DNA from: Pirellulales bacterium | Lineage (GTDB): Bacteria; Planctomycetota; Planctomycetia; Pirellulales; JAEUIK01 | Assembly (NCBI GenBank): GCA_019745975.1 | Contig: JAIESQ010000042.1 | Span: forward strand, 1 to 42,353 | Direction of reading: 5' to 3' | DNA length: 42,353 nucleotides | In this document: positions 8,344 to 19,436 of the stretch, piece by piece | How the letters are laid out: the number at the start of each line of letters is the position of its first letter | How positions within the stretch are numbered: the first letter of the stretch is position 1 | The notes under the pieces: model-generated | Told to the model about the DNA's origin: nothing | Database searches by the model: none | Seen by the model: the letters and a program-made list of their open reading frames with translations, nothing else | Made by a program: the position numbers and the translations under genes

Positions 8344-9606
8344 TCAGAACGCGACCGCGAGCCCCAACTGCACCAGCAGCCGGATCGATGAGGGGGTCAG
8401 TCCGTGACTATAGCTGCCGTAGACGCTTAACCGTCGCGCCACGTACCAGATGCCACCGACGCCCACCATCGAGCCATCCTTGAAGCGCGTGCCGGTCGCC
8501 GGCTCGTTGACGAACCCGTGCACGAACATTTCCACATTGTCGACGATCGGCCCTTGCAGCGAATACTCGAAATTGAACTGCATGACGCGACCATCGCCGG
8601 TCTTGGCGCCATAGGTGCCACCGATGTTCCATTCAAAGACAAAGTCGAACGGCAGCGAATGGTCGAAGTTCAACGAATAGCTCGGCTGGGTTTGCGGCGT
8701 CGACAAGTGCGGCGAACCCAAGTTGGTCTGAAACTCCATTTCCAGCCCCACGGCAGGGATGAAGTTGTCGCGGTCCTCCTCCCACCAATTGTGTTTGAAG
8801 CCGAAGATCAGCGGACTGAACCCGTGCAGCGTGTCGTGCAGACGGACATCGGTCGTGATGCCGCTCCCCTGCATGCGCAGCTCGACTCGGGAGAAGATGC
8901 CGACCCGCAGCAGAAACGGCACCAAATACGTTTTCACGGGGCTGTTGTGGTAGCGGCGATAGGTAAATGGGCTCGACTCCAGGTACACGACACCTACTGG
9001 CACCGCGTAAGCGCTGTTGGGGAAGTTGAAGCTGTCAGGCCCGGGCTCGCGAATGTTCGGTTCGGCGGTGCCGCGGAGCCACACGCCCGGAAGCGTCTCG
9101 AACTGGCGATTGAAACGGCGGATCGTGGCCAACCGGCGACGCCGGCTCATTTCGGTGTCGTCGGGCATTTCCCGCGAGCGCTCGACATCGAAGCCATCAA
9201 AAGCGAGCGAGCCATCGTCCGTCGCGCCGGGTTGCTCGCTCGCCAATTCACCGACAGTTGGCGGAGCAATTAACGCTGGCGAGTTCAGCGCGGCCGACGG
9301 TTGTCGCGCCAACGCTGCGCCGAACTGACTGTCGAATGGCGGCGTCGGTGACGGCGCAAGCGGCACCGCCAACACGACCGGCGGCAAATCAACCGGCGCC
9401 TCGAACGACGCCAACAGCACCTGCCGAGCGGAGGGCGCGATGTCGTCGGTCGTCGACTTTGGCGAGTCGCTCGCAAAGACCGACAATTCGCGACCAGCCA
9501 ACGCAGTCACCATGACGAGACAGACGACACAAGTCCACGAACGCGGTGCGCACCAGATGCCCAGCGCTGAGCAAAGCCGGCGATAGCGCGGGGTTCTATT
9601 CGGCAT
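8344..9606 (-). CDS. secreted outer-membrane beta-barrel protein, MetA-pathway/'transporter' type
   Basis: A 420-residue exported protein. The chosen ATG gives MPNRTPRYRR followed by a hydrophobic stretch (CVVCLVMVTALAG), a plausible signal peptide. An upstream ATG at 9645 and a TTG-type start at 9783 would add non-signal-like sequence. The middle (about 60-150) is low complexity. The C-terminal 250 residues alternate aromatic and polar residues in beta-strand style (GVVYLESSPFTYRRY, VGIFSRVELRMQGSGI, FNFEYSLQGPIVDNVEMFVHG, GGIWYVARRLSVYGSYSHGL) and end in Phe, as in outer-membrane barrels. It resembles the Phenol_MetA_deg/transporter family, whose members are poorly characterised. It is transcribed away from the antiporter region. 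Confidence 0.75.
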   Translation of the reverse strand: MPNRTPRYRRLCSALGIWCAPRSWTCVVCLVMVTALAGRELSVFASDSPKSTTDDIAPSARQVLLASFEAPVDLPPVVLAVPLAPSPTPPFDSQFGAALARQPSAALNSPALIAPPTVGELASEQPGATDDGSLAFDGFDVERSREMPDDTEMSRRRRLATIRRFNRQFETLPGVWLRGTAEPNIREPGPDSFNFPNSAYAVPVGVVYLESSPFTYRRYHNSPVKTYLVPFLLRVGIFSRVELRMQGSGITTDVRLHDTLHGFSPLIFGFKHNWWEEDRDNFIPAVGLEMEFQTNLGSPHLSTPQTQPSYSLNFDHSLPFDFVFEWNIGGTYGAKTGDGRVMQFNFEYSLQGPIVDNVEMFVHGFVNEPATGTRFKDGSMVGVGGIWYVARRLSVYGSYSHGLTPSSIRLLVQLGLAVAF

Positions 9607-10042
9607 CGGAAGACGACGAGTGACTGCGACTACAGTGAAGCGCATGCCCTGCGGACGACGAGCCGGCGTGGCCGGTCGCGCGCAATCAACTACATTGCGG
9701 CCACTCCGAGAGTTAACCGCTACAGTGACGAACGACGGGATCAAACGAATGTGAACGTGCAATGAGACGAGAGCTGCGCTCAACTTCGCCGGTCAGGACG
9801 CGCCGTTGTAAGTGACGCGGAGTCCGTGCCAGCACTGAGCGCAAGCCGCGTAACAGTAGTCAAATCCGACACGAACCGTCCAGATCAGGTACGTGACGCT
9901 CGCCGGCAACTCGGCAGTAGAAACCGACGACACGCCATTGCCGCGCCTCAAGCTACGGCGTCGTGGAAGGATGGGAAGGGCATGAGCAGTCTGGGAAGGT
10001 TGTGCCGCCTGGCACGGCGCGGCGCCAAGCCCTGATTACGCC
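9607..10042. other. gene-free region before the palindromic element
   Basis: Between the start of the beta-barrel gene on the minus strand and the MITE-like element I see no gene with coding character. It should hold the promoter of the minus-strand gene. Short open frames here lack recognisable motifs and start signals. Confidence 0.5.
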
Positions 10043-10226
10043 CTAGCCCGCATTTCTCACCAGCCATCTGCTACGCGGAGCCCAAGTCCTTGGATGGCGG
10101 CGTCGCCGGGTGCGTCTCGGTCCTCAACGTATGAGCCAATACGCTTCCGGTCGATCCACACCCTGCTTCTTGCCATCCAAGCACTTAACTCCGCTCGCGA
10201 CGAAGTTGGTGAGAAATGCGGGCTAG
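10043..10226. mobile_element. MITE-like palindromic element with 20-bp perfect terminal inverted repeats
   Basis: The left end CTAGCCCGCATTTCTCACCA (10043-10062) is the exact reverse complement of 10207-10226. The arms remain complementary inward: CGGAG pairs with CTCCG, and CTTGGATGGC (about 10090-10100) with GCCATCCAAG (about 10172-10181). The centre is CGTATGAGCCAATACG. The whole 184 bp is thus an imperfect palindrome with no coding capacity, the form of a miniature inverted-repeat element. No clear direct duplication flanks it unless the terminal CTAG itself is the duplicated target. It ends 9 bp before the antiporter start, so it probably replaced or supplies part of that gene's upstream region. 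Confidence 0.8.
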
Positions 10227-10234
10227 ATTTTGGC

Positions 10235-11341
10235 ATGAAGATGACCGCCGTCGCGCTCTCTGACCCGCTTGCCGTCGCTCCCCGCGGCAAGCGCTCCTGG
10301 AACCCTCTCAACGCGCTTCTGGTCCTCGTGCCCATCACGGCGTTCCTCGATTGGCGTGATGTTCAGCCGACGATCATGTTCTTCTTGTCAACAGTGGCCA
10401 TCGTGCCGCTGGCGGGCTTGATGGGCGAAGCGACAGAAAAAATCGCCGCCCGCGCCGGCACCACGCTGGGGGGCATGCTCAACGCATCGCTAGGGAACTC
10501 ACCTGAGATCATCATCTCGCTGTTTGCCTTGCACCGTGGCCTGCACGACGTGGTGAAAGCTTCGCTGACCGGGTCAATTTTGGCGAATTTGTTGTTTTCG
10601 CTCGGCATCGCGATGCTCGCCGGCGGCGTGCGCTACCAGCGGCAGCGCTTCAATCAACACACGGCGCGGATGAGTGCGGGCTTGTTGATGTTGGCGGCGA
10701 TCGGACTGGCGGTCCCGTCGATCTTTCATTTCACGAACAGTCAGCAAGAGCATGAAGTGAGCTTCGAGATCGCCCTTGTGCTCTTCGTGGTCTATCTGCT
10801 CAGTCTGTTTTTCACGCTGGTGACCCACCGGCAACTGTTTCAGGAGCCGGTGAGCGAAGAGGAGGGAACCGAGGAGCCCGCGAATTGTTGGGGCGCCGCC
10901 GCCATGCTGGCTGGCGCTACCGTGGCCGTGGCCTGGATGAGCGAAATCCTCACCCGCTCGATCGAGCCGGCCGCCACGGCCCTGGGGCTGACGCCCATCT
11001 TCGCTGGTGTGGTGCTGTTGGCTGTCGTGGGCAACGCGGCCGAATTGTTCAATGCCGTTCGCTTCGCGCGCATCAACAAGATGGATCTGTCATTCGGCAT
11101 TACGGTCGGCGCGAGCACGCAAGTGGCGCTGCTGGTTGCACCGGTCCTGCTCTTTTTGAGCTACCCGATCGGCCAGCCGATGGACTTGTTGTTCACGCCG
11201 TTTGAACTGGCCTCGGTCGCCCTGGCGGTCATCATCACCAACCAGTTGACCATCGACGGGGAGTGCAATTGGCTACAGGGCGCGATGCTCTTGGCGGTCT
11301 ATACCGTGCTGGCGATCGCCTTCTATCACGTGGCCGTCTAG
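10235..11341 (+). CDS. calcium/proton antiporter (CaCA superfamily, CAX type)
   Basis: A 368-residue integral membrane exchanger with about ten to eleven hydrophobic segments. It has two inverted alpha-repeat motifs: GEATEKIAARAGTTLGGMLN leading to ASLGNSPEIIISLFAL in the first half, and AVVGNAAELFNAVRFARINK leading to GITVGASTQVALLVAP in the second. The acidic residues in GNSPE and GNAAE match the cation-binding Glu of CAX proteins. An acidic loop (SEEEGTEEP) separates the halves. The frame is open to 10094, but that extension lies inside the palindromic element, so ATG 10235 (or 10241) is preferred. Its last 69 nt overlap the convergent 11273-11764 gene. The likely role is export of Ca2+ (or similar divalent cation) in exchange for H+. 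Confidence 0.88.
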   Translation: MKMTAVALSDPLAVAPRGKRSWNPLNALLVLVPITAFLDWRDVQPTIMFFLSTVAIVPLAGLMGEATEKIAARAGTTLGGMLNASLGNSPEIIISLFALHRGLHDVVKASLTGSILANLLFSLGIAMLAGGVRYQRQRFNQHTARMSAGLLMLAAIGLAVPSIFHFTNSQQEHEVSFEIALVLFVVYLLSLFFTLVTHRQLFQEPVSEEEGTEEPANCWGAAAMLAGATVAVAWMSEILTRSIEPAATALGLTPIFAGVVLLAVVGNAAELFNAVRFARINKMDLSFGITVGASTQVALLVAPVLLFLSYPIGQPMDLLFTPFELASVALAVIITNQLTIDGECNWLQGAMLLAVYTVLAIAFYHVAV

Positions 11342-11764
11342 TGCTGCAAAAGGAAGCCTGTCGACTCCAGGTCTCGCCTGCGGAAAACGTCGATTGAAAT
11401 CGCGCAAGAAGCGATCGACATAACGCAACCCTTCTTGGTAGGCACTAGGAAACCGCTGTTCGAACCAGCGCTCCACGGGGGCGAACGTTCGCGGCAGCAG
11501 GGCCGCGCTGCCGGTTACGATCAACGGCACGCCAATCATGCCCGGCAGAACCGCGCCTACGACGCCCAGCCCAACCAGCATCACGCCGAGTTCCGTGGGC
11601 AAGCGACGCAACTGCTCGCGCGTGGCGGCCGCGTCAAATGGCAGAACGTCGATCGTCGCGGTGACGCTCTCCCCGCACGGAATTGGCGGCACGCTGACCT
11701 TCGTCTGCAGCCCGGAGTTGTGGCTACCCGGCCGCAGCACTGTGGCTGTTGAATGCGAAAACAT
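11273..11764 (-). CDS. small membrane protein, PGPGW-like, last gene of the P-ATPase cluster
   Basis: A 163-residue protein with a polar N-terminal region, then a hydrophobic hairpin with LVGLGVVGAVLPGMIGVPLIVTGSAALL (shown in parts: GLGVVGAVLPGMIG, PLIVTGSAALL), followed by a charged amphipathic tail (PVERWFEQRFPSAYQEGLRY). The LPG...GxPL pattern between two short hydrophobic stretches resembles PGPGW and YbaN-type membrane modules. The ATG has AGAGAGG 5-6 nt upstream. It begins 22 nt after the pseudo-ATPase stop, so it is probably the distal gene of that operon. Its 3' end overlaps the antiporter gene on the other strand by 69 nt, and residues in the overlap look poor, so the true family C-terminus may be shorter. 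Function unknown. Confidence 0.7.
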   Translation of the reverse strand: MFSHSTATVLRPGSHNSGLQTKVSVPPIPCGESVTATIDVLPFDAAATREQLRRLPTELGVMLVGLGVVGAVLPGMIGVPLIVTGSAALLPRTFAPVERWFEQRFPSAYQEGLRYVDRFLRDFNRRFPQARPGVDRLPFAALDGHVIEGDRQHGIDRQEHRAL

Positions 11765-11786: not shown

Positions 11787-13466
11787 TTAGGTCGCCAATG
11801 CGGCGGGTAGCACTTCGCCAGTAAGCGCCGTCGGCTGCATTTGCACGGCGTGGGTTAACATCTGGTTGTAGGTCGTTCGTACTTTCGCGGCGGCACGCTC
11901 GAGTTGTCGCTGCGCGGCTGGCACCTGCCACACCAGCGGTTGGCCCGTACTCATCCTCAAGCTCGCCCGATGGACGCCCCAGGTCGCCATGTTTGTTAGC
12001 AACACCACATGCAATCCCGTGAAGCCGCACAGGAAGGCCCCCGCGACACATCCGGCGTTTGCCAGCGCGGTCGTCCACAGAGCTCCCTGCTGGTGCCGAC
12101 GCCTTTGCCGGGCAACCTGCCAAAGCAACACGATTCCACCGGCGTCGCCGTCGAGCACCAAAGCGGTGGCATGGCTCTCCCCGGACGATTCGGCATCGCC
12201 TAACTGAATCGCCGCAGATATCGCTTGAGTCACGAGTCGGTCTGGCGTCGAACCCGTGATTAGGACTACGCGATGTCCTTGACGTTGCAACCGTTGCAAT
12301 TCGAATGCCGCTTCGCCGGCGCCTTCGGCGGCCAGCACGAAATCCGGTTGATAACGGCCCGATACTTCCAAGGCGATCAGTTCGTCGATGACACCCAAGA
12401 CTCCGACCCGAACGCCGAGTTCAGTTCTCAGACGCTCAAGTTGTTGGATCGCATGGCGATCAGCGGACCAGCGTCGGACCAGCTCCGCGTCGATGACGAC
12501 GACGTTGGCCGCGGCGATTCGTTCCAACGCGGTGGGTTCCAGAATCAAGGCGCCGGACTGTGCGCACTTGCCCGCCAGGCAAGCGAACTCGAGAGCGGCA
12601 GACCGCTTGGGAGTCGTCGCGTAGTCGGGACGCAGAATCGCGGCAGCCGTAGTCAGATCGGCCGCGGCCAGCCCGATTGCCGCGGTGGTTAACGTCGGCA
12701 AGGCCGCGCGGTCGGCGAACTTGCCGCCGCGCTCGGTCTGTGCTTCGCAAGCTGAGTCGATCGCTCGCTCGAGCCTGTCCGACAGGCGATCGTGGTTCGA
12801 CGCTTCGTCTCCGGCACAGCGGGCGCGAAGATGCTGCTTGGCCTGGTATCTGGCGCGGGCGATTCCGCCGGTGTACTGTCGGTCCCAGGCGCGCAGAAAC
12901 CAGGCCATCAATGCGGCAGTGAAGTAGTTGCCAGTGGCCACGGTCGAAGCCAGGATCACCGTGCTCACCAGCGGTGAGCCGACGCGACCGCGCGCCAATT
13001 GACTACAGGCCGTGGCGACCGTCGGTGCGAGTGCTCCGGCCAGCAAGAGTGCCGTCGGCGGGGCCGCCGCAATCGTGGCGAATTCGGTGAGTGCGCCAGT
13101 TGCCAGCGACAACTGCGTCAGGTCCCAACTGGGCACACCGACCTGTGGACAGGTCCCGGCTCGCAAGAGGACGCCGTCGAGCGCTGATTCGATTTGTTCC
13201 GAATTGATAAGCGCGTGATCAAAGCGGACGAGCACGCTTCCCGTGCGCGTGCTGGTGCCCACATGGTGCACACCTGGCAGCCGTAGCAGTTCGTCTACGA
13301 CCGCTTCGGCGAGTTCGATCGCGCCGCGCAACCTGGGATGGCGGAAGCGAATGCGGCCGGGGAGCGCATGTACGATGCGCCAGCCAACTTCGGCGCTTGG
13401 GCCGAGCAATTCCGTGGAATTGGCGGTGATGCCTGAATCCATCGATGTCGGTCGCACGGTAAGCAT
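11787..13466 (-). CDS. degenerate P-type ATPase-like protein with HMA_2 domain (pseudo-ATPase)
   Basis: A 559-residue protein collinear with the neighbouring P-type ATPase but missing catalytic parts. Residues about 28-105 form an HMA_2-type domain (HALPGRIRFRHPRLRG, TRTGSVLVRFDH). Paired hydrophobic segments follow (LLLAGALAPTVATA, TVATGNYFTAALMAWFL). FADRAALPTLTTAAIGLAAA matches ADKAVVPTLALGSLAIG of the ATPase. The DKTGT position reads IDAEL: Asp326 remains, Lys-Thr-Gly-Thr are lost. The actuator domain with TGES and the nucleotide-binding domain are absent. A P-domain remnant (GHRVVLITGS) and two final hydrophobic segments (LANAGCVAGAFLCGFTGLHV) are kept. It starts 8 nt after the small membrane gene's stop. 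The intact, long reading frame argues for a functional non-pumping subunit, not a decaying gene. That role is inference. Confidence 0.82.
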   Translation of the reverse strand: MLTVRPTSMDSGITANSTELLGPSAEVGWRIVHALPGRIRFRHPRLRGAIELAEAVVDELLRLPGVHHVGTSTRTGSVLVRFDHALINSEQIESALDGVLLRAGTCPQVGVPSWDLTQLSLATGALTEFATIAAAPPTALLLAGALAPTVATACSQLARGRVGSPLVSTVILASTVATGNYFTAALMAWFLRAWDRQYTGGIARARYQAKQHLRARCAGDEASNHDRLSDRLERAIDSACEAQTERGGKFADRAALPTLTTAAIGLAAADLTTAAAILRPDYATTPKRSAALEFACLAGKCAQSGALILEPTALERIAAANVVVIDAELVRRWSADRHAIQQLERLRTELGVRVGVLGVIDELIALEVSGRYQPDFVLAAEGAGEAAFELQRLQRQGHRVVLITGSTPDRLVTQAISAAIQLGDAESSGESHATALVLDGDAGGIVLLWQVARQRRRHQQGALWTTALANAGCVAGAFLCGFTGLHVVLLTNMATWGVHRASLRMSTGQPLVWQVPAAQRQLERAAAKVRTTYNQMLTHAVQMQPTALTGEVLPAALAT

Positions 13467-13474
13467 CGTCTGTT

Positions 13475-13675
13475 TCAGGCTGTTGACGCGGCGACGGCTA
13501 GTTCGCCGCCATCGACGAGCGCCTCGAGACTCACGACCAACGCCATTTCGTGATTACGCAAGATGCCGGCGATGCGATTGAGGTGTTGTCGCTTGCGCTT
13601 GACCTTGTAGCTCACGTAGGCGACCAACACGACGCCAAACACGCCGGCCATCATGCCCGTAACTTCTTCGCCCAT
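13475..13675 (-). CDS. small single-span membrane protein in the P-ATPase cluster
   Basis: A 66-residue protein. A hydrophobic segment (GMMAGVFGVVLVAYVSY, about residues 7-23) is followed by a basic stretch (KVKRKRQHLNR) and a helical tail (AGILRNHEMALVVSLEALVDGG). The basic stretch places the C-terminus in the cytoplasm. ATG 13675 has GGAG about 11 nt upstream; a TTG at 13684 is too close to that site. Spacing to the pseudo-ATPase gene is only 8 nt, so the two are almost certainly co-translated. I recognise no family. A regulatory or assembly subunit is plausible. Confidence 0.7.
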   Translation of the reverse strand: MGEEVTGMMAGVFGVVLVAYVSYKVKRKRQHLNRIAGILRNHEMALVVSLEALVDGGELAVAASTA

Positions 13676-13764: not shown

Positions 13765-14289
13765 TTAGATGATGACTCCCTCGGCCAGCGTGGAGGTGGC
13801 CTCGGCGATGATTTCGATCGCCCCCTCGACCCCCTCCTTGCGCGCGGTGCGACGAACGATTTGCGTCACATGCTGCGCGGTTTGCTGGTCGCACACGATT
13901 TGCATCCCCCAGCGCAACAAGGCAATCGCCGAGTCGGCGTCCTTCATCACGCCAAGGTTGAGCCGAAAACCGTAGCCCTCCTTCGCGCGCACGCTGAATG
14001 CCTGGCGATCGACGACCAGGAAGATCGGATCGCTCCCGAGGTAGTGTGGGTGGGTCTTCAGAATGTTCCGCGATTGTTCGGCGCTGAGGATGTAGAGGTT
14101 TTGGCGCTCGAGGTACTGTCGAACTAGCTCGAGGTTTTCCTTGACCGCCGCGCCGATCGCGGTGTTCCAGCCCGAATCAATCAGGAAAACGTCGAAACGG
14201 CGATCCAGCGGAGAGCCATCCTCCGTCGGCGGGTCGTTCGCCGAATCGCACGGGATATCGAATTCGACGAAGGGGGTCTCGCCTTTCAT
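13765..14289 (-). CDS. protein of unknown function in the P-ATPase cluster
   Basis: A 174-residue soluble protein with no signal peptide or membrane segment. It has an acidic N-terminus. An alpha/beta-like core follows: DVFLIDSGWNTAIGAAVKEN, RQYLERQNLYILSAEQSR, DPIFLVVDRQAFS, GFRLNLGVMKDADSAIALLRW. The C-terminus is Ala/Glu-rich. The strand-helix pattern of VFLIDSGWN could suit a small regulatory or nucleotide-binding fold, but I see no known motif. The start is well supported: ATG 14289 has GGAGG 7 nt upstream. It lies 63 nt after the ATPase stop and 89 nt before the small membrane gene, inside the operon, so a role with the ATPase is likely. Confidence 0.75.
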   Translation of the reverse strand: MKGETPFVEFDIPCDSANDPPTEDGSPLDRRFDVFLIDSGWNTAIGAAVKENLELVRQYLERQNLYILSAEQSRNILKTHPHYLGSDPIFLVVDRQAFSVRAKEGYGFRLNLGVMKDADSAIALLRWGMQIVCDQQTAQHVTQIVRRTARKEGVEGAIEIIAEATSTLAEGVII

Positions 14290-14352: not shown

Positions 14353-16974
14353 CTATGCCCTGGTCCCGACAATCGTGGCGCGATCAAAGTGCGGCGCCTG
14401 TCGTTGGCTCGGCACGATATCGGAAGAGGCCGCGGCGACGGTCGGGCTCACCGCCGCCTGTGTTGGCGCGATGTTCCCATTCCCAATGCCCTGGATGCTG
14501 CGGCGCAGTTCCTGCTCGTGTTCTTGCTGGGCTTGCGCCTCGGCAATGCGCCGCAGCGGCAACAGGCCATTGGCTAGCGCGGCCAGCGCCGCCACGTTGT
14601 TGGTGAGCACCGAAGCCATCACGCCGAACCCCAGGAAGAACGCTCCGCAAATGCAGGCGATGTTGGGCGCCAAGATCAATCCCCAACTGCGCCGCACGTT
14701 GCGATCCAGGTCGCGGGCGACGTCGAGCAGATCGAGCAGGCGGGCCAGACTCTCTTCCATGAAGACGATGTGCGCCGTGTCCGTGGCGATCGACGAGGCG
14801 CCGCGGAGCGAGATCGACACGTTGGCTTGCTTGAGCGCGATCGAATCGTTGATGCCGTCCCCCACAAAGCAGACTTTGCGCCCTTCCTGTTGCAGGCGCT
14901 CCACGTAAGAGGCCTTGTCAGCAGGCAGCACGCCCGCGAAATACTGGTCCATCCCCAGCGACTGCGCGAGCTTGCGGGTGGGGGCTTCGTGGTCGCCCGA
15001 AATGATCGCGATATGCTTGATGCCGCGCTCGCGCAACCCCAGCATGATTTCCTCAACCTCGGGCCGCTGGCTGGCTTGCAGCTCGAGCGCCCCTGCCAGG
15101 CGGTCGTCGACAGCCACCATCACCATGGTGTGCCCTTCGTGATGTGCTTCGGCCAAAGCCGCTTCGACCTTTGCTGGGATGGCGATGCCCTCCAGGCCCA
15201 TGAATCGCTTACTGCCGACGCGGATCTTGCGCCCCTCGATACCTACCGTGATGCCGTAACCGACGTGGTACTGCGACTCGTCGGCTGTCGGCATCGGTAG
15301 ACCGGTTTCCTTGAATTTCTCCAGGATCGCCTTGGCGATCGGGTGCGAGAACTTGTTCTCCGCCGCTGCGGCGTAGCGCAGGATGTCGGACTGCTTGAAG
15401 CTTCGGCAAGCGATCACGCGCCCGACTTCGGGCCGCTCGCGCGTCAGGGTGCCGGTCTTGTCGAAGAGCACCGTGTCGATTTCGTTGAGCAGTTCCAGGG
15501 CCCTGCCATCCTTGACCAGAATCCCCTTGTGAGCGCACAAGGCCAGCGAGGTGAGCATTGCCAACGGAGCCGCCATGCGAATGCCGGTGCCGAAGTCGCT
15601 GTTGAGCACGGCCATCGCGCCCGCCGGGCCAAGCGTGCCAATCGCCAGGCTCCCTAGCGCCAACGTCGGAACGACGGCCTTATCGGCAAGCCTCTCTCCC
15701 TTGTGCTGCGAGCTGAGCTTGTAGCCGGCCGAGTCGTTAAGGATGCGGCTGATCTTGGCCGTGGTGGTTTCACTCCCTGAAGTCTCGACACGGACAAAGA
15801 CTTTGCCGGCGACCATCACCGTCGAGGCGAAGACGCGGTCGCCGATGCCCTTTTCGGCCGGCGTTGATTCGCCCGTCAGGGCGTGCTGATCGATCATCGC
15901 CATTCCCTCGGCGACGGTTCCGTCGACTGGCACGACTTCGCCCGTGTTGACGACGATCACATCGCCGGCGACGAGCTTGTCGAGCGGAGTTTCAATTTCG
16001 ACGCCGTCGCGCCACAGCCACACATAGCGCGGCTGTTTTCCGAAGACGTTCAGAAGCATCTTTTTCGAGTCATCCTGGGTCTTCTGGACGAGCGACCGAC
16101 CGAAGGCCAGGCACCAGGTGAGCACCGAGCCGGCGAAGATCGAGCCTGTCGCTAGGCACCCGGTCACTACGATCGCGTCGAGCACGTCGACACCCAGACG
16201 GCGCTCGACGAACAGCACCTCACGGGCGTTCTTGAATGTGGTGATCGAGTTGTAGGCCAAGAGTGCGCCGGCCACCGGCATGAGCGGCGGCAGCGCAAAC
16301 TGCGCTCCGATCGACAGTGGCACGCCGACCGTGCTTAGCGCAAGGCTCAGGTCGGGTCGGTCGTAACCGGCGGGGTGGTCGACGTTGTGCAGTGCCGACT
16401 CGAGGATTTCGAGTACCTGCTCTTTGCGCAAAACCGACGGCTTGTAATTGACCAGCACGCTGCCCGTTGTGCTGCTGGTTTTGTACTGCTCGATCCCCAG
16501 CACGCTCATCAGTTCGCGCTCGACCGCCTGACAGACTTCCTTCTTGCGGTACAAGGCGGGATGCCGCAACCTCAGGCGGCCAGGCAACTCGTGACGAATC
16601 TGCCAGGCCGTGACCAACGGGCCATGGCGATAAATGCGAATCACTCCCTGCGGGCACGGTTTCAGGTGCGCGGCCGCCAACAGCGGCCGTGCTACCGCGT
16701 GCGCGTCGTCGAGATGGGCGGCGTTTCCCAACAAGCGCCCGCCGATTTCCGCGATTGCCTGGCGGCGAGTCACCGTATGTTCGCAATACCGCACATCGGC
16801 GACCGCCCGGCGCGGAGACGCCTTACCCGACGCGATCGTCACGCTGCGCACGGGCTGTGCGGCCAGCACGCGCTCGAGAAAGTCGCGGCACAGTTCGCCT
16901 TCTGGCTCGGCGAACAACCGCTGGCTGTGGAAACGGATGACGCCGTCGTGCGGGTAAGAAACCTGGATGTCCAT
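14353..16974 (-). CDS. HMA_2-containing P1B-like P-type ATPase with non-canonical ion site
   Basis: An 873-residue membrane cation pump. An N-terminal alpha/beta module (about 1-75) has no metal motif. An HMA_2 domain (about 118-195, ELPGRLRLRHP from Glu129, TTGSVLVNY) lacks CxxC. The actuator domain has TGES at 367-370. The phosphorylation site is D505 in DKTGTLT, HP at 544-545 marks the P1B N-domain, and GDGINDS is at 705-711. P1B pumps usually have CPC in the transmembrane segment before DKTGT. Here the same place reads SDFGTGIRMAAP (Asp460), with no Cys. The C-terminus adds about 70 polar residues. An upstream extension to 17643 crosses another gene in a different frame and is rejected. 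First or second gene of the cluster; substrate unknown. Confidence 0.92.
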   Translation of the reverse strand: MDIQVSYPHDGVIRFHSQRLFAEPEGELCRDFLERVLAAQPVRSVTIASGKASPRRAVADVRYCEHTVTRRQAIAEIGGRLLGNAAHLDDAHAVARPLLAAAHLKPCPQGVIRIYRHGPLVTAWQIRHELPGRLRLRHPALYRKKEVCQAVERELMSVLGIEQYKTSSTTGSVLVNYKPSVLRKEQVLEILESALHNVDHPAGYDRPDLSLALSTVGVPLSIGAQFALPPLMPVAGALLAYNSITTFKNAREVLFVERRLGVDVLDAIVVTGCLATGSIFAGSVLTWCLAFGRSLVQKTQDDSKKMLLNVFGKQPRYVWLWRDGVEIETPLDKLVAGDVIVVNTGEVVPVDGTVAEGMAMIDQHALTGESTPAEKGIGDRVFASTVMVAGKVFVRVETSGSETTTAKISRILNDSAGYKLSSQHKGERLADKAVVPTLALGSLAIGTLGPAGAMAVLNSDFGTGIRMAAPLAMLTSLALCAHKGILVKDGRALELLNEIDTVLFDKTGTLTRERPEVGRVIACRSFKQSDILRYAAAAENKFSHPIAKAILEKFKETGLPMPTADESQYHVGYGITVGIEGRKIRVGSKRFMGLEGIAIPAKVEAALAEAHHEGHTMVMVAVDDRLAGALELQASQRPEVEEIMLGLRERGIKHIAIISGDHEAPTRKLAQSLGMDQYFAGVLPADKASYVERLQQEGRKVCFVGDGINDSIALKQANVSISLRGASSIATDTAHIVFMEESLARLLDLLDVARDLDRNVRRSWGLILAPNIACICGAFFLGFGVMASVLTNNVAALAALANGLLPLRRIAEAQAQQEHEQELRRSIQGIGNGNIAPTQAAVSPTVAAASSDIVPSQRQAPHFDRATIVGTRA

Positions 16975-17047: not shown

Positions 17048-17275
17048 TTAGGCGGCGTCGGACTTGACGCCGGCTTCGGCCAAGGTGTCTTGCAGCGACT
17101 CGACTTGTTCGGCAACCTTTTGCGCGATTCCGGCATACGAGTCGCCGAGCTGAGCGCCGACCGCGCCGAGCACGGGAGCCAGCGCATCGCGGATCTTGTT
17201 GAAATTGGCGCCGGCCAGCGCGCCGATCGCGATGCCGGCCGACAGATACAGGACTTCGTTGCGGGTGAGGGGCAT
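17048..17275 (-). CDS. small glycine-zipper membrane protein, possible P-ATPase partner
   Basis: A 75-residue protein. One N-terminal hydrophobic, Gly/Ala-rich span (VLYLSAGIAIGALAGANF, about 9-26) is followed by an amphipathic helical tail (IAQKVAEQVESLQDTLAEAG). ATG 17275 has a perfect AGGAGG seven nt upstream, the best ribosome binding site in the region; a longer reading to 17305 is rejected for that reason. It lies 73 nt ahead of the P-type ATPase. Mycobacterial P-ATPases CtpC, CtpG and CtpV are encoded next to small PacL (DUF1490) proteins of similar shape that scaffold the pump. This gene is analogous in size, shape and position; homology is not shown. It has no Cys or His cluster. Confidence 0.8.
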   Translation of the reverse strand: MPLTRNEVLYLSAGIAIGALAGANFNKIRDALAPVLGAVGAQLGDSYAGIAQKVAEQVESLQDTLAEAGVKSDAA

Positions 17276-17587: not shown

Positions 17588-18001
17588 CTAGCCGCAAGCG
17601 ATGGCCTCGACCCCCTCCGCAATTGCTTCGCATTCTTCGGCACGGGCGGCCAACGACTCGCGGCGAGCGACCTTCTTCTGCTCGTAACGGGATCGCAGGT
17701 CCTTGACCATGTCGCCAGCGGCCGCCGCGCCGTCGTGCAGGCCGTTGCTCAGCGGGTTATTGGTCGGCAACAGGCTGGTGACAAACAACGTCGGGAAAGC
17801 AACGCCGTAGGAGAGGAAGTAGCAGCACGAGTAAGCAGCCTTCGACAGCGATACCTTTCCCTGCGGCACGATGCGCTGCACGGCCTTGGCGGCGTCCGAC
17901 GCGCCATCCTTCAGCGCCTCCGCGGCGCTCGACATGGCGGCGGCCACCTGCTGAAGCGGATCGTTCTTGGTATCGGTCGAGGCAGGATGTTCGGCAATCA
18001 C
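17588..18001 (-). CDS. small membrane-associated protein of unknown function
   Basis: A 137-residue protein. An Ala-rich helical N-terminus (QQVAAAMSSAAEALKDGASD) precedes a hydrophobic core (SLSKAAYSCCYFLSYGVAFP, then TLFVTSLLPTNNPLSNG) and a charged C-terminal helix (DLRSRYEQKKVARRESLAAR). The adjacent Cys pair in AYSCCYF sits within the hydrophobic part. The GTG start at 18001 is preceded by GGGGAG at 8 nt; the longer ATG reading from 18046 has no ribosome binding site. It is upstream of, and co-directional with, the P-ATPase cluster but separated by about 310 nt, so it may have its own transcript. I do not recognise the family. Confidence 0.72.
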   Translation of the reverse strand: MIAEHPASTDTKNDPLQQVAAAMSSAAEALKDGASDAAKAVQRIVPQGKVSLSKAAYSCCYFLSYGVAFPTLFVTSLLPTNNPLSNGLHDGAAAAGDMVKDLRSRYEQKKVARRESLAARAEECEAIAEGVEAIACG

Positions 18002-18329
18002 GGCATTCTCTCCCCGGATTCGGTTGCGGTAGGCGGGATTAACCAAGCTGCGTAATCTGCGGTGGGTTTAAGCGGCGGCACCGGAAGTTTGCCTCCGACT
18101 TCGGGCGATGTCAAAAGCCGACGTCGCGGAAATGTTATCAGGCCGGCACTTTGCGACCGTCTGATTGGCGTCGTCCGAGCAATCGGCACAACCGGAGCCA
18201 GCGGCAACCATCCCGATCACTGGCGACGATCCGCGTTGCTTCAACAACCGCCATGCGGCGCAGCTATCTAATAGAACCGGACCTGCGTCCGTTGTGTCGC
18301 GCTTGCGCTCGCATCTCTGGAAACGTTCG
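18002..18329. other. divergent intergenic region
   Basis: This region separates the minus-strand P-ATPase cluster from the plus-strand YbaN-fusion gene and should hold promoters for both. It contains the GGGGAG ribosome binding site for the GTG start at 18001. I see no strong sigma-70 box pair, no regulator operator that I can name and no RNA gene. An open frame from 18165 continues into the YbaN fusion but its extra 55 residues look non-coding. Confidence 0.45.
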
Positions 18330-19436
18330 ATGAAGTTCCTGCGACTGTTTACCGGTCCGCGCGAAGTTGCCATCGACGTGGCGGCATCGGGTCGCTCGCT
18401 GACGATCGAGCTTCCCGATTTCGATCGTCGCGTCGCCGACGGCACGCTCCGTCAATTGGTCGAACGGTTGTTTGGTGCGCCGTGCGTCGAAGCCGTTCTG
18501 GTCGGCCTGGCGCAGCGCAGCATCGTGGTCGAATTCGACCCGCGCCAGGCCGGGCCTTTCACCTCACTCGAGGAAATGACGACGGCGCTGCGTCAACCAA
18601 CGTCGCCGATCGACTCCTGGCCGGAAGCGGCCCTGCTCAACGGAAATGCTCGACGCGCGGCGCCGGCGCTGGCAACCGTGCGCAGCGACCTGGGATTGCG
18701 CACGCTGTCGTTGCGGCGCCTGGGGCGCGGCGCGCTTGAGGTCGAGCTCCCCTCGATACACAATCGGCGTCCCCTGACGCGGGCACTGGCCAGTGACGTC
18801 GAGCAGTTCGCTGGAGTGCGCAAGGCACACGGCATTGCACCACAGGCTCTGCTGCGCATCGCGCACGACGAAGCCGTGGTCTCCAAAGGGCGTTTGCTCA
18901 CGGCGGTCAATGAGCGACTTACCGCGCTACTCAACGGCCCTGAGTTGTCGAACACCGCGCCGCTCCTGGCCACCGGCGCCACTCGGATCACGTATCTCGC
19001 CGCGGGCATGGGGTGCCTGGCAATGAGCGGGCTGGGCCTGGTGATGCCAGGGCTGCCAACAGTGCCTTTCGTGCTGGCGACCAGCTACTTCTTCGTCCGT
19101 TCGTCGCCGCGGCTCGATCGCCGGCTGCGGCAATCACGGCTCTTTGGTCAGATGCTGCGCGACTGGGACGAGCATGGCGGAATTCGTCCGCGCGCTAAGA
19201 TCTCGGCGATTGCCTTCTCGTTGACGCTGTCGACGGTCATGGTGCTGGTGATTCAGCCCACGCTGGGAACCTTCTCGCTAATCGCGATCGGTACCGGAAT
19301 CGGCATTGCGCTGATTCTGCGGATCCCGACCGTGAATCTCCCCGACGACAGCGAGGCGCCGCGGTTGAGCTTGACCAATTTCGGCCAGCGCTTGCGGCTC
19401 TTGTTGCCGACGCCAGCGCCGGCAGGGACCGTCTGA
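18330..19436 (+). CDS. YbaN/DUF454 membrane protein fused to two HMA_2-like modules
   Basis: A 368-residue protein. Residues about 20-70 and 125-200 look like two Cys-less ferredoxin-fold modules. The first (GRSLTIELPDFDRRVADGTL...AQRSIVVEFDP) parallels the ATPase N-terminus. The second (ALEVELPSIHNRRPLTRALA...RIAHDEAVVSKGRLLTAVNE) parallels its HMA_2 domain. From about residue 220 comes a YbaN/DUF454 domain: GLGLVMPGLPTVPFVLATSY, RSSPRLDRRLRQSRLFGQML, DWDEHGGIRPRAK, then two more hydrophobic segments. ATG 18330 follows GGAA. It is divergent from the ATPase operon, and the shared architecture suggests one system. DUF454 proteins have no established function. Confidence 0.82.
   Translation: MKFLRLFTGPREVAIDVAASGRSLTIELPDFDRRVADGTLRQLVERLFGAPCVEAVLVGLAQRSIVVEFDPRQAGPFTSLEEMTTALRQPTSPIDSWPEAALLNGNARRAAPALATVRSDLGLRTLSLRRLGRGALEVELPSIHNRRPLTRALASDVEQFAGVRKAHGIAPQALLRIAHDEAVVSKGRLLTAVNERLTALLNGPELSNTAPLLATGATRITYLAAGMGCLAMSGLGLVMPGLPTVPFVLATSYFFVRSSPRLDRRLRQSRLFGQMLRDWDEHGGIRPRAKISAIAFSLTLSTVMVLVIQPTLGTFSLIAIGTGIGIALILRIPTVNLPDDSEAPRLSLTNFGQRLRLLLPTPAPAGTV

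Follow-up and report, generated by a model that had tools for sequence, protein, structure and literature searches.

Catalytically dead P1B-ATPase paralogs form a conserved family encoded together with HMA_2 (P1B6-like) ATPases in planctomycetes

Background

The usual picture of a P-type ATPase is that of a pump operating by itself or together with subunits that are either small or unrelated to it. The locus analyzed here, located in a stretch of 42,353 nucleotides from a Pirellulales genome (hereinafter, the window), raises the question of whether such a pump might also work with a catalytically dead paralog of itself. Downstream of an intact HMA_2 ATPase (the pump), the window encodes a 559-aa homolog (the partner) for which the sequence-only reading of this DNA considered selection for a non-pumping partner or regulatory subunit to be the simplest explanation; two outcomes were to speak against it, namely, orthologs that are full-length ATPases or a dN/dS ratio near 1.

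Results

The gene cassette of the window

The partner belongs to a run of seven genes on the minus strand, from position 18001 down to 11273 of the window (Table 1). It starts 886 bases downstream of the pump, and the two genes are not adjacent as originally read, given that two small genes occupy the gap; the distances are 63, 89 and 8 nt from the pump through the genes for the 174-aa and 66-aa proteins to the partner.

Table 1. Features of the cassette and its flanks in the window; the counts of genomes with relatives (last column) are lower bounds because they come from single-query searches on partly cut loci
Coordinates	Strand	Length (aa)	Feature	Genomes with relatives (at least, of 48)
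10094..11341	plus		Gene for an Na_Ca_ex (calcium/cation) antiporter, convergent with the cassette; 16 of 66 loci have relatives close by	
11273..11764	minus	163	Weak similarity to DUF454; a single hydrophobic segment	37
11787..13466	minus	559	Partner, dead P1B-ATPase paralog (stop codon included)	
12477..12491	minus		Codons for D326-A-E-L-V, at the place of DKTGT in the window partner	
12624..12632	minus		Codons for R279-P280-D281, TM4 signature of the window partner (pump: N-S-D)	
13182..13379	minus		HMA_2 domain of the window partner, without CxxC	
13475..13675	minus	66	Small membrane protein, 8 nt ahead of the partner	13
13765..14289	minus	174	Soluble protein, encoded between the pump and partner genes; no CxxC, weak similarity to the thioredoxin-like fold	31
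14353..16974	minus	873	Pump, intact HMA_2 P1B6-like ATPase with TGES, DKTGT and GDGIND (stop codon included)	
17048..17275	minus	75	Protein ahead of the pump, PacL-like by layout only	23
17588..18001	minus	~137	First gene of the run, one hydrophobic segment; GTG start inferred	41
18165..19436	plus		Divergent gene, HMA_2-like N-terminal region and DUF454	13

The similarity of the 174-aa protein to the thioredoxin-like fold is weak (best Foldseek E-value 0.075, best Z-score 7.2). A Pfam scan of the 75-aa protein yields no match to DUF1490 (PacL) or DUF6110, proteins of this kind being short and diverged. The HMA_2-like region of the divergent DUF454 gene is related to the pump in a profile comparison (E-value 8e-9, probability of 96%), and BLASTP of this gene against the pump is not significant (best E-value 0.055). 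A PHROGs search matched nothing. Elsewhere in the window, a Phenol_MetA_deg-type protein is encoded at positions 8347-9783 on the minus strand, with similar frames in 11 of the 66 cassette loci (the member in L038 is without a Pfam match). Another recurrent neighbor is an EcsC-like gene (e.g., 6420-7658 in L045, 12012-13169 in L048, and 4873-5925 in L063, on which PF12787 was tested) that is found in 14 of the 66 loci, in 10 of them just after the partner and in the same orientation.

The window partner

The homology of the window partner to the pump is confirmed, far above chance. BLASTP aligns the two proteins in three collinear segments (partner residues 29-191 with pump residues 124-289, E=2e-19; 246-326 with 425-505, E=1e-7; 385-493 with 686-794, E=4e-8), in agreement with the in-order alignment made by eye in the sequence-only reading, and Pfam detects the HMA_2 domain, recognized in that reading as well, with E=1.7e-12 (48 bits compared to the cut-off of 30). 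At E<=0.001, the pump and the partner are the only HMA_2 proteins detected in the window genome. The AlphaFold model of the partner alone (pLDDT 83.6, pTM 0.75), one of the checks that had been suggested, corresponds to the P1B-ATPase fold minus the actuator domain: it matches solved P1B-ATPases with the best Z-score of 28.9 over 393 residues (4.1 A), and the search of PDB sequences with the partner profile yields E=5.9e-52. The window partner has the membrane core and the P domain of P1B-ATPases, which bears out the membrane segments and the P-domain remnant first seen by eye.

The replacement of DKTGT by DAELV is real: KTGT is lost, and D326, the counterpart of the phosphorylated aspartate in the alignment, is retained. 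The place of the nucleotide-binding domain is taken by ~60 residues in the partner (326-385) compared to ~180 in the pump (505-686). The actuator domain is missing as well from the window copy, which is not typical of the family: in an alignment of 37 full-length partners (hereinafter, A1), of which the window partner is the shortest, the actuator profile PF00122 (E1-E2_ATPase) is matched in 36 rows, with the window partner as the sole exception. Judged by DKTGT, TGE and GDGxND, none of which it contains, the window partner is predicted not to be an active P-type ATPase. Its frame is clean, it keeps 37 of the 52 covered partner-conserved columns, including I171, M187, W194, R279 and D281, and its third-position GC (0.708, with 0.81 in the pump) is the lowest but one of 11 window genes compared.

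Motif loss across the family

The motif alignment comprised 126 sequences, with frames shorter than 550 aa left out, exact copies (some contigs occur both in genome_contigs and among the other genomes) removed and near copies kept; the partner label was assigned by similarity score, independently of the motifs, whereas the pump label required DKTGT. Neither DKTGT nor, at the aligned place, TGE occurs in any of the 58 partner rows, and GDGxND is found in no partner frame, with half-motifs such as VGD surviving in some. As judged from this alignment, the partner has lost the motifs of phosphorylation, dephosphorylation and Mg binding. The orthologs are therefore not intact ATPases, though the window copy is shorter than most of them, and the first of the two adverse outcomes is not seen in these 58 rows. 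The partner has a TM4 signature of its own, R-x-D as opposed to N-x-D in the pump (arginine in 55, proline in 50 and aspartate in all 58 rows; asparagine, serine and aspartate in the pump); I171, M187 and W194 are further residues in which it differs from the pump.

In the pump lineage, DKTGT is present in 62 of 67 rows and absent from L049, L067 (DNTGT), L084, L088 (DKTST) and L090. The sequences of L049, L084 and L090 suggest additional cases of inactivation, and the DNTGT of L067 may be a sequence error. The genes in which DKTGT is lost or changed in L049 (5772-7805), L084 (712-3057), L090 (6449-8800) and L088 (7125-9527) lie beside genes of the 174-aa type and mostly also of the 66-aa type.

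Distribution and linkage to the pump

Dead P1B-ATPase paralogs such as the window protein constitute a conserved family, and they share an operon with an intact HMA_2 (P1B6-like) ATPase and several small proteins. Matches were obtained in 50 of the 397 genomes of the window's class, the window's own included; two weak single matches (G248, E-value 7e-5; G355, E-value 1.1e-4) were left out, so that 48 genomes were examined. The search for the same protein beside HMA_2 ATPases, proposed in the sequence-only reading, recovers a dead partner, mostly longer than the window copy, in 47 of these genomes; in the remaining one (G136), the pump reaches the contig end. An operon of up to seven genes recurs, with the partner usually located after the pump on the same strand. 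This is the case, within <=3 kb, for 40 of 53 pump-lineage genes, and eight more are cut by the contig or locus end (in this count, L066 and L072 were scored as non-DKTGT solely because contig ends cut their frames). The remaining five pump-lineage genes have no adjoining partner: four (L088, L089, L090 and L092) come from genomes that each have a pair elsewhere, and at the fifth, L079, a weakly matching fragment is located at the contig end. The counts show that the partner is co-inherited with the pump.

Outside the window, the partners are mostly 656-971 aa long (stop to stop) and keep the actuator domain, not TGE; HMA_2 is detected by Pfam at E<=0.001 in 23 of the 37 A1 partners. The window partner is a shortened member of this family. 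As a query, the 559-aa protein alone retrieved nothing from the plasmid collection or from genome_contigs; relatives were retrieved with the pump as the query (plasmids) and with the partner alignment (genome_contigs, scanned with a single peptide pattern that gave 40 loci, all with Planctomycetota titles except for L114). A phylum-wide search with the partner profile matched 169 of 199 genomes and is uninformative because this profile matches P-type ATPases in general. None of the six other genomes of the window's taxonomic family has the cassette, and in the trees, the pumps with which the window pump groups belong to different orders of the class rather than to its own, so that horizontal gain of the cassette is possible.

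Selection

The ratio omega (dN/dS), estimated with a simple counting method for the 32 most similar of 137 non-independent pairs, stays below 1 wherever it could be computed. In the 12 closest usable pairs of loci (pump identity 0.84-0.96), the partner omega is 0.12-0.37, with the median of 0.17, compared to 0.05-0.23 and 0.07 for the pump, and exceeds the pump value in 11 of the 12 pairs; in more distant pairs, it ranges from 0.14 to 0.66. One pair, L055/L056, is too close to be informative (0.49 for the partner and 0.93 for the pump at dS of 0.01), and the partner dS is saturated in two pairs. All these values come from related orthologs at other loci; the window copy, with its nearest relative only 32% identical, is outside the pairs compared. 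On these estimates, the partner family is under purifying selection, with a weaker constraint than that on the pump. The second adverse outcome, dN/dS near 1, is not observed for the family, which therefore is not decaying, and selection for a non-pumping partner gains support at the family level.

Phylogeny and occurrence outside Planctomycetota

In a careful tree of 41 rows, built after removal of the motif columns, 17 partners from Planctomycetota, an Acidobacteriales metagenome-assembled genome (MAG) and Methylobacterium make up one side of a branch with the support of 100/98. In a quick tree of 75 rows rooted with a CPC-type ATPase, such partners (42 rows, support 98) and the pumps found in the same organisms (25 rows, support 99) are sister groups. 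These topologies show the partner and the pump to share ancestry, as far as the sequences tell, through an old duplication. Together with the omega values, they rule out a decaying gene as an account of the family. The partner from the cyanobacterium Gloeothece branches with its own pump (100/98), and a single origin of all 18 partners is rejected (AU test, p=0.0024); apparently, there was a second, independent origin of the partner in Gloeothece, represented by one pair on a long branch. The long branches are those of Methylobacterium (4.1), Gloeothece (2.9) and the window (2.2). In the Acidobacteriales MAG (L114), the pump and the partner each group with the same Pirellulales relatives, which implies that the genes of the cassette move together; misbinning in this MAG could also account for the locus.

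The sample beyond Planctomycetota is small. The Methylobacterium partner (614 aa, annotated as hypothetical) and the Gloeothece partner (522 aa, annotated as HMA2 domain-containing) were found when the plasmid collection was searched with the pump, and both give nearly full-length matches to the partner profile (E=5.6e-31 and E=4e-20, respectively); used as queries, they retrieve no further full-length partner from the plasmids. Neither produces a Pfam match to the actuator domain, so this domain probably was lost more than once. The plasmids also carry HMA_2-type pumps whose neighbor is a short HMA2 protein that stands alone (in Priestia, Azospirillum and Vibrio) or, in Rhodococcus, a DUF1490 protein. 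The Gloeothece cluster also contains a YegS-type lipid kinase with a C-terminal HMA_2 domain (L138, 14965-16467, E=7e-9).

Class and cargo of the pump

In TM6, the pump has NN in 54 of 55 non-plasmid pump rows, with a gap in the remaining one, and HN in four plasmid pumps; the pump is called P1B6-like because it has NN in place of the HN expected there. Its TM4 contains a motif of the N-S-D-F-G-T-G type, with the aspartate present in 61 of 62 pumps, and no CPC, so that by this motif, it would not be a CPC-type P1B-ATPase. An Na_Ca_ex gene is seen downstream on the same strand in 11 loci, upstream on the same strand in three, and on the other strand in two (the window and L114), with none at the other 50 loci, many of which are short. 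In Methylobacterium, a CorA-family gene lies between the pump and the partner. Because TM4 has an aspartate rather than CPC, Na_Ca_ex is located beside many cassettes, and CorA is present in Methylobacterium, our guess, from motifs and neighbors, is that the pump probably transports a hard divalent cation.

Discussion

We consider it reasonably probable that the partner belongs to a putative P1B6-like divalent-cation pump complex as a subunit that does not cycle and has a structural or regulatory role. Points against this reading are the weaker constraint on the partner than on the pump, the missing actuator domain and the low third-position GC of the window copy, and the pump-lineage genes that stand without an adjoining partner. 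Under this scenario, the partner would sit in the membrane beside the pump, in a heteromeric complex, and the R-x-D signature of TM4 would put a built-in positive charge into its cation site. Some P-type ATPases have such a built-in lysine or arginine, which the arginine beside the TM4 aspartate of the partner recalls. The charge might hold the partner in one conformation in which it would position, stabilize or gate the active pump. Contacts could be made through the HMA_2 domains, without CxxC, of the pump, the partner and, by profile, the product of the divergent DUF454 gene, and also through the small membrane proteins, yielding a membrane platform; given the HMA_2 domains in these three proteins and in the Gloeothece lipid kinase, HMA_2 may be a docking module. 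A more specific version, for which the chances seem slightly short of even, is that of an obligate heteromer of a pump and a pseudopump that evolved at least twice, with the ion-site arginine of the dead half making it a fixed gate or scaffold. To our knowledge, a class of subunits that are dead paralogs has not been described for P-type ATPases.

The partner might also act alone, as a membrane sensor, a passive pathway or a metal buffer, with the shared operon reflecting merely a shared need. The conserved TM4 signature and the retained membrane core are compatible with this possibility, as are the second copies in the pump lineage without an adjoining partner (L088, L089, L090, L092), but it appears unlikely given that the partner, in 47 of 48 genomes, is nearly always directly downstream of a pump and that the pump and the partner of L114 are placed jointly in the trees. 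Alternatively, the partner could be a structural component of a ferrosome-like membrane organelle, iron-storing or otherwise, rather than a transport regulator as such. The P1B6-like pump and the small membrane proteins of the cassette recall the fez clusters, and PacL-type proteins may scaffold platforms, according to the accessible part of the source (PMC9374683); nevertheless, a Pfam scan of eight window proteins detects no DUF4405 match of the FezC type, and we regard this explanation as distinctly improbable.

For the window gene itself, decay of a second ATPase copy has to be weighed separately from the fate of the family. The gene product is the shortest of the 37 aligned partners and the only one among them that lacks an actuator match, its branch is long (2.2), and its third-position GC differs from that of the pump (0.71 versus 0.81). 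All these features could be expected of a decaying copy, which we nonetheless find very improbable: the frame is clean, the orthologs are under purifying selection, the dead clade predates the split from Methylobacterium, most of the covered partner-conserved columns (37 of 52) are kept, and two partners outside Planctomycetota likewise lack the actuator domain.

The interpretation of the partner as a non-cycling subunit of a pump complex can be compared with several known systems. Ferrosomes are made with a P1B6-type pump, FezB. The fez clusters with FezB resemble the cassette in combining a pump with small membrane proteins. FezA and FezB are named in the available portion of one paper (PMC12574912); FezC, in the corresponding portion of another source, is a DUF4405 cytochrome (PMC10979944) rather than a dead ATPase. 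Small PacL-like proteins, possible scaffolds, are encoded alongside P1B6 and P1B6-like pumps, and in particular, CtpC-PacL1 of mycobacteria resembles the cassette in that a heavy-metal-type ATPase is encoded with potentially scaffolding small membrane proteins; the sections of that source available to us mention no dead ATPase paralog (PMC9374683). The TM6 of the window pump, with NN at the place of the HN of four plasmid pumps, is another point of resemblance to the P1B6/PacL systems, but CtpC has CPC in TM4 as opposed to N-S-D in the window pump, and for the short, diverged 75-aa protein of the window, Pfam gives no DUF1490 or DUF6110 match. CtpH and CtpI (FUPA24) of mycobacteria are uncharacterized P-type ATPases that carry a large additional segment at the N terminus, in this respect similar to the pair described here, but, as far as the accessible text of the sources goes, each is a single long chain with the motifs in the C-terminal half (PMC3573892, PMC10654040). 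The stand-alone HMA2 proteins encoded on the Priestia, Azospirillum and Vibrio plasmids place an HMA_2 domain beside the same kind of pump, but they consist of only ~95-195 aa and lack the membrane and P-domain core of an ATPase. In KdpFABC, the P-type ATPase KdpB, chains of which are among the fold matches of the partner model, works in an obligate complex; KdpA, the partner of KdpB, is not known to be a paralogous dead ATPase. Searching the open-access literature, we found no description of a dead P-type ATPase partner.

Conclusions

Kinases use pseudoenzyme subunits, and if the proposed role of the partner is correct, the P-type ATPase superfamily would do so as well. The conserved pairs in planctomycetes and a few other bacteria suggest that a partner that does not pump is built into some pumps of this type. 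Methylobacterium radiotolerans carries the pair on a 36-kb plasmid, pMRAD05, which makes a direct genetic test possible. In planctomycetes, the pair points to an uncharacterized cation system.
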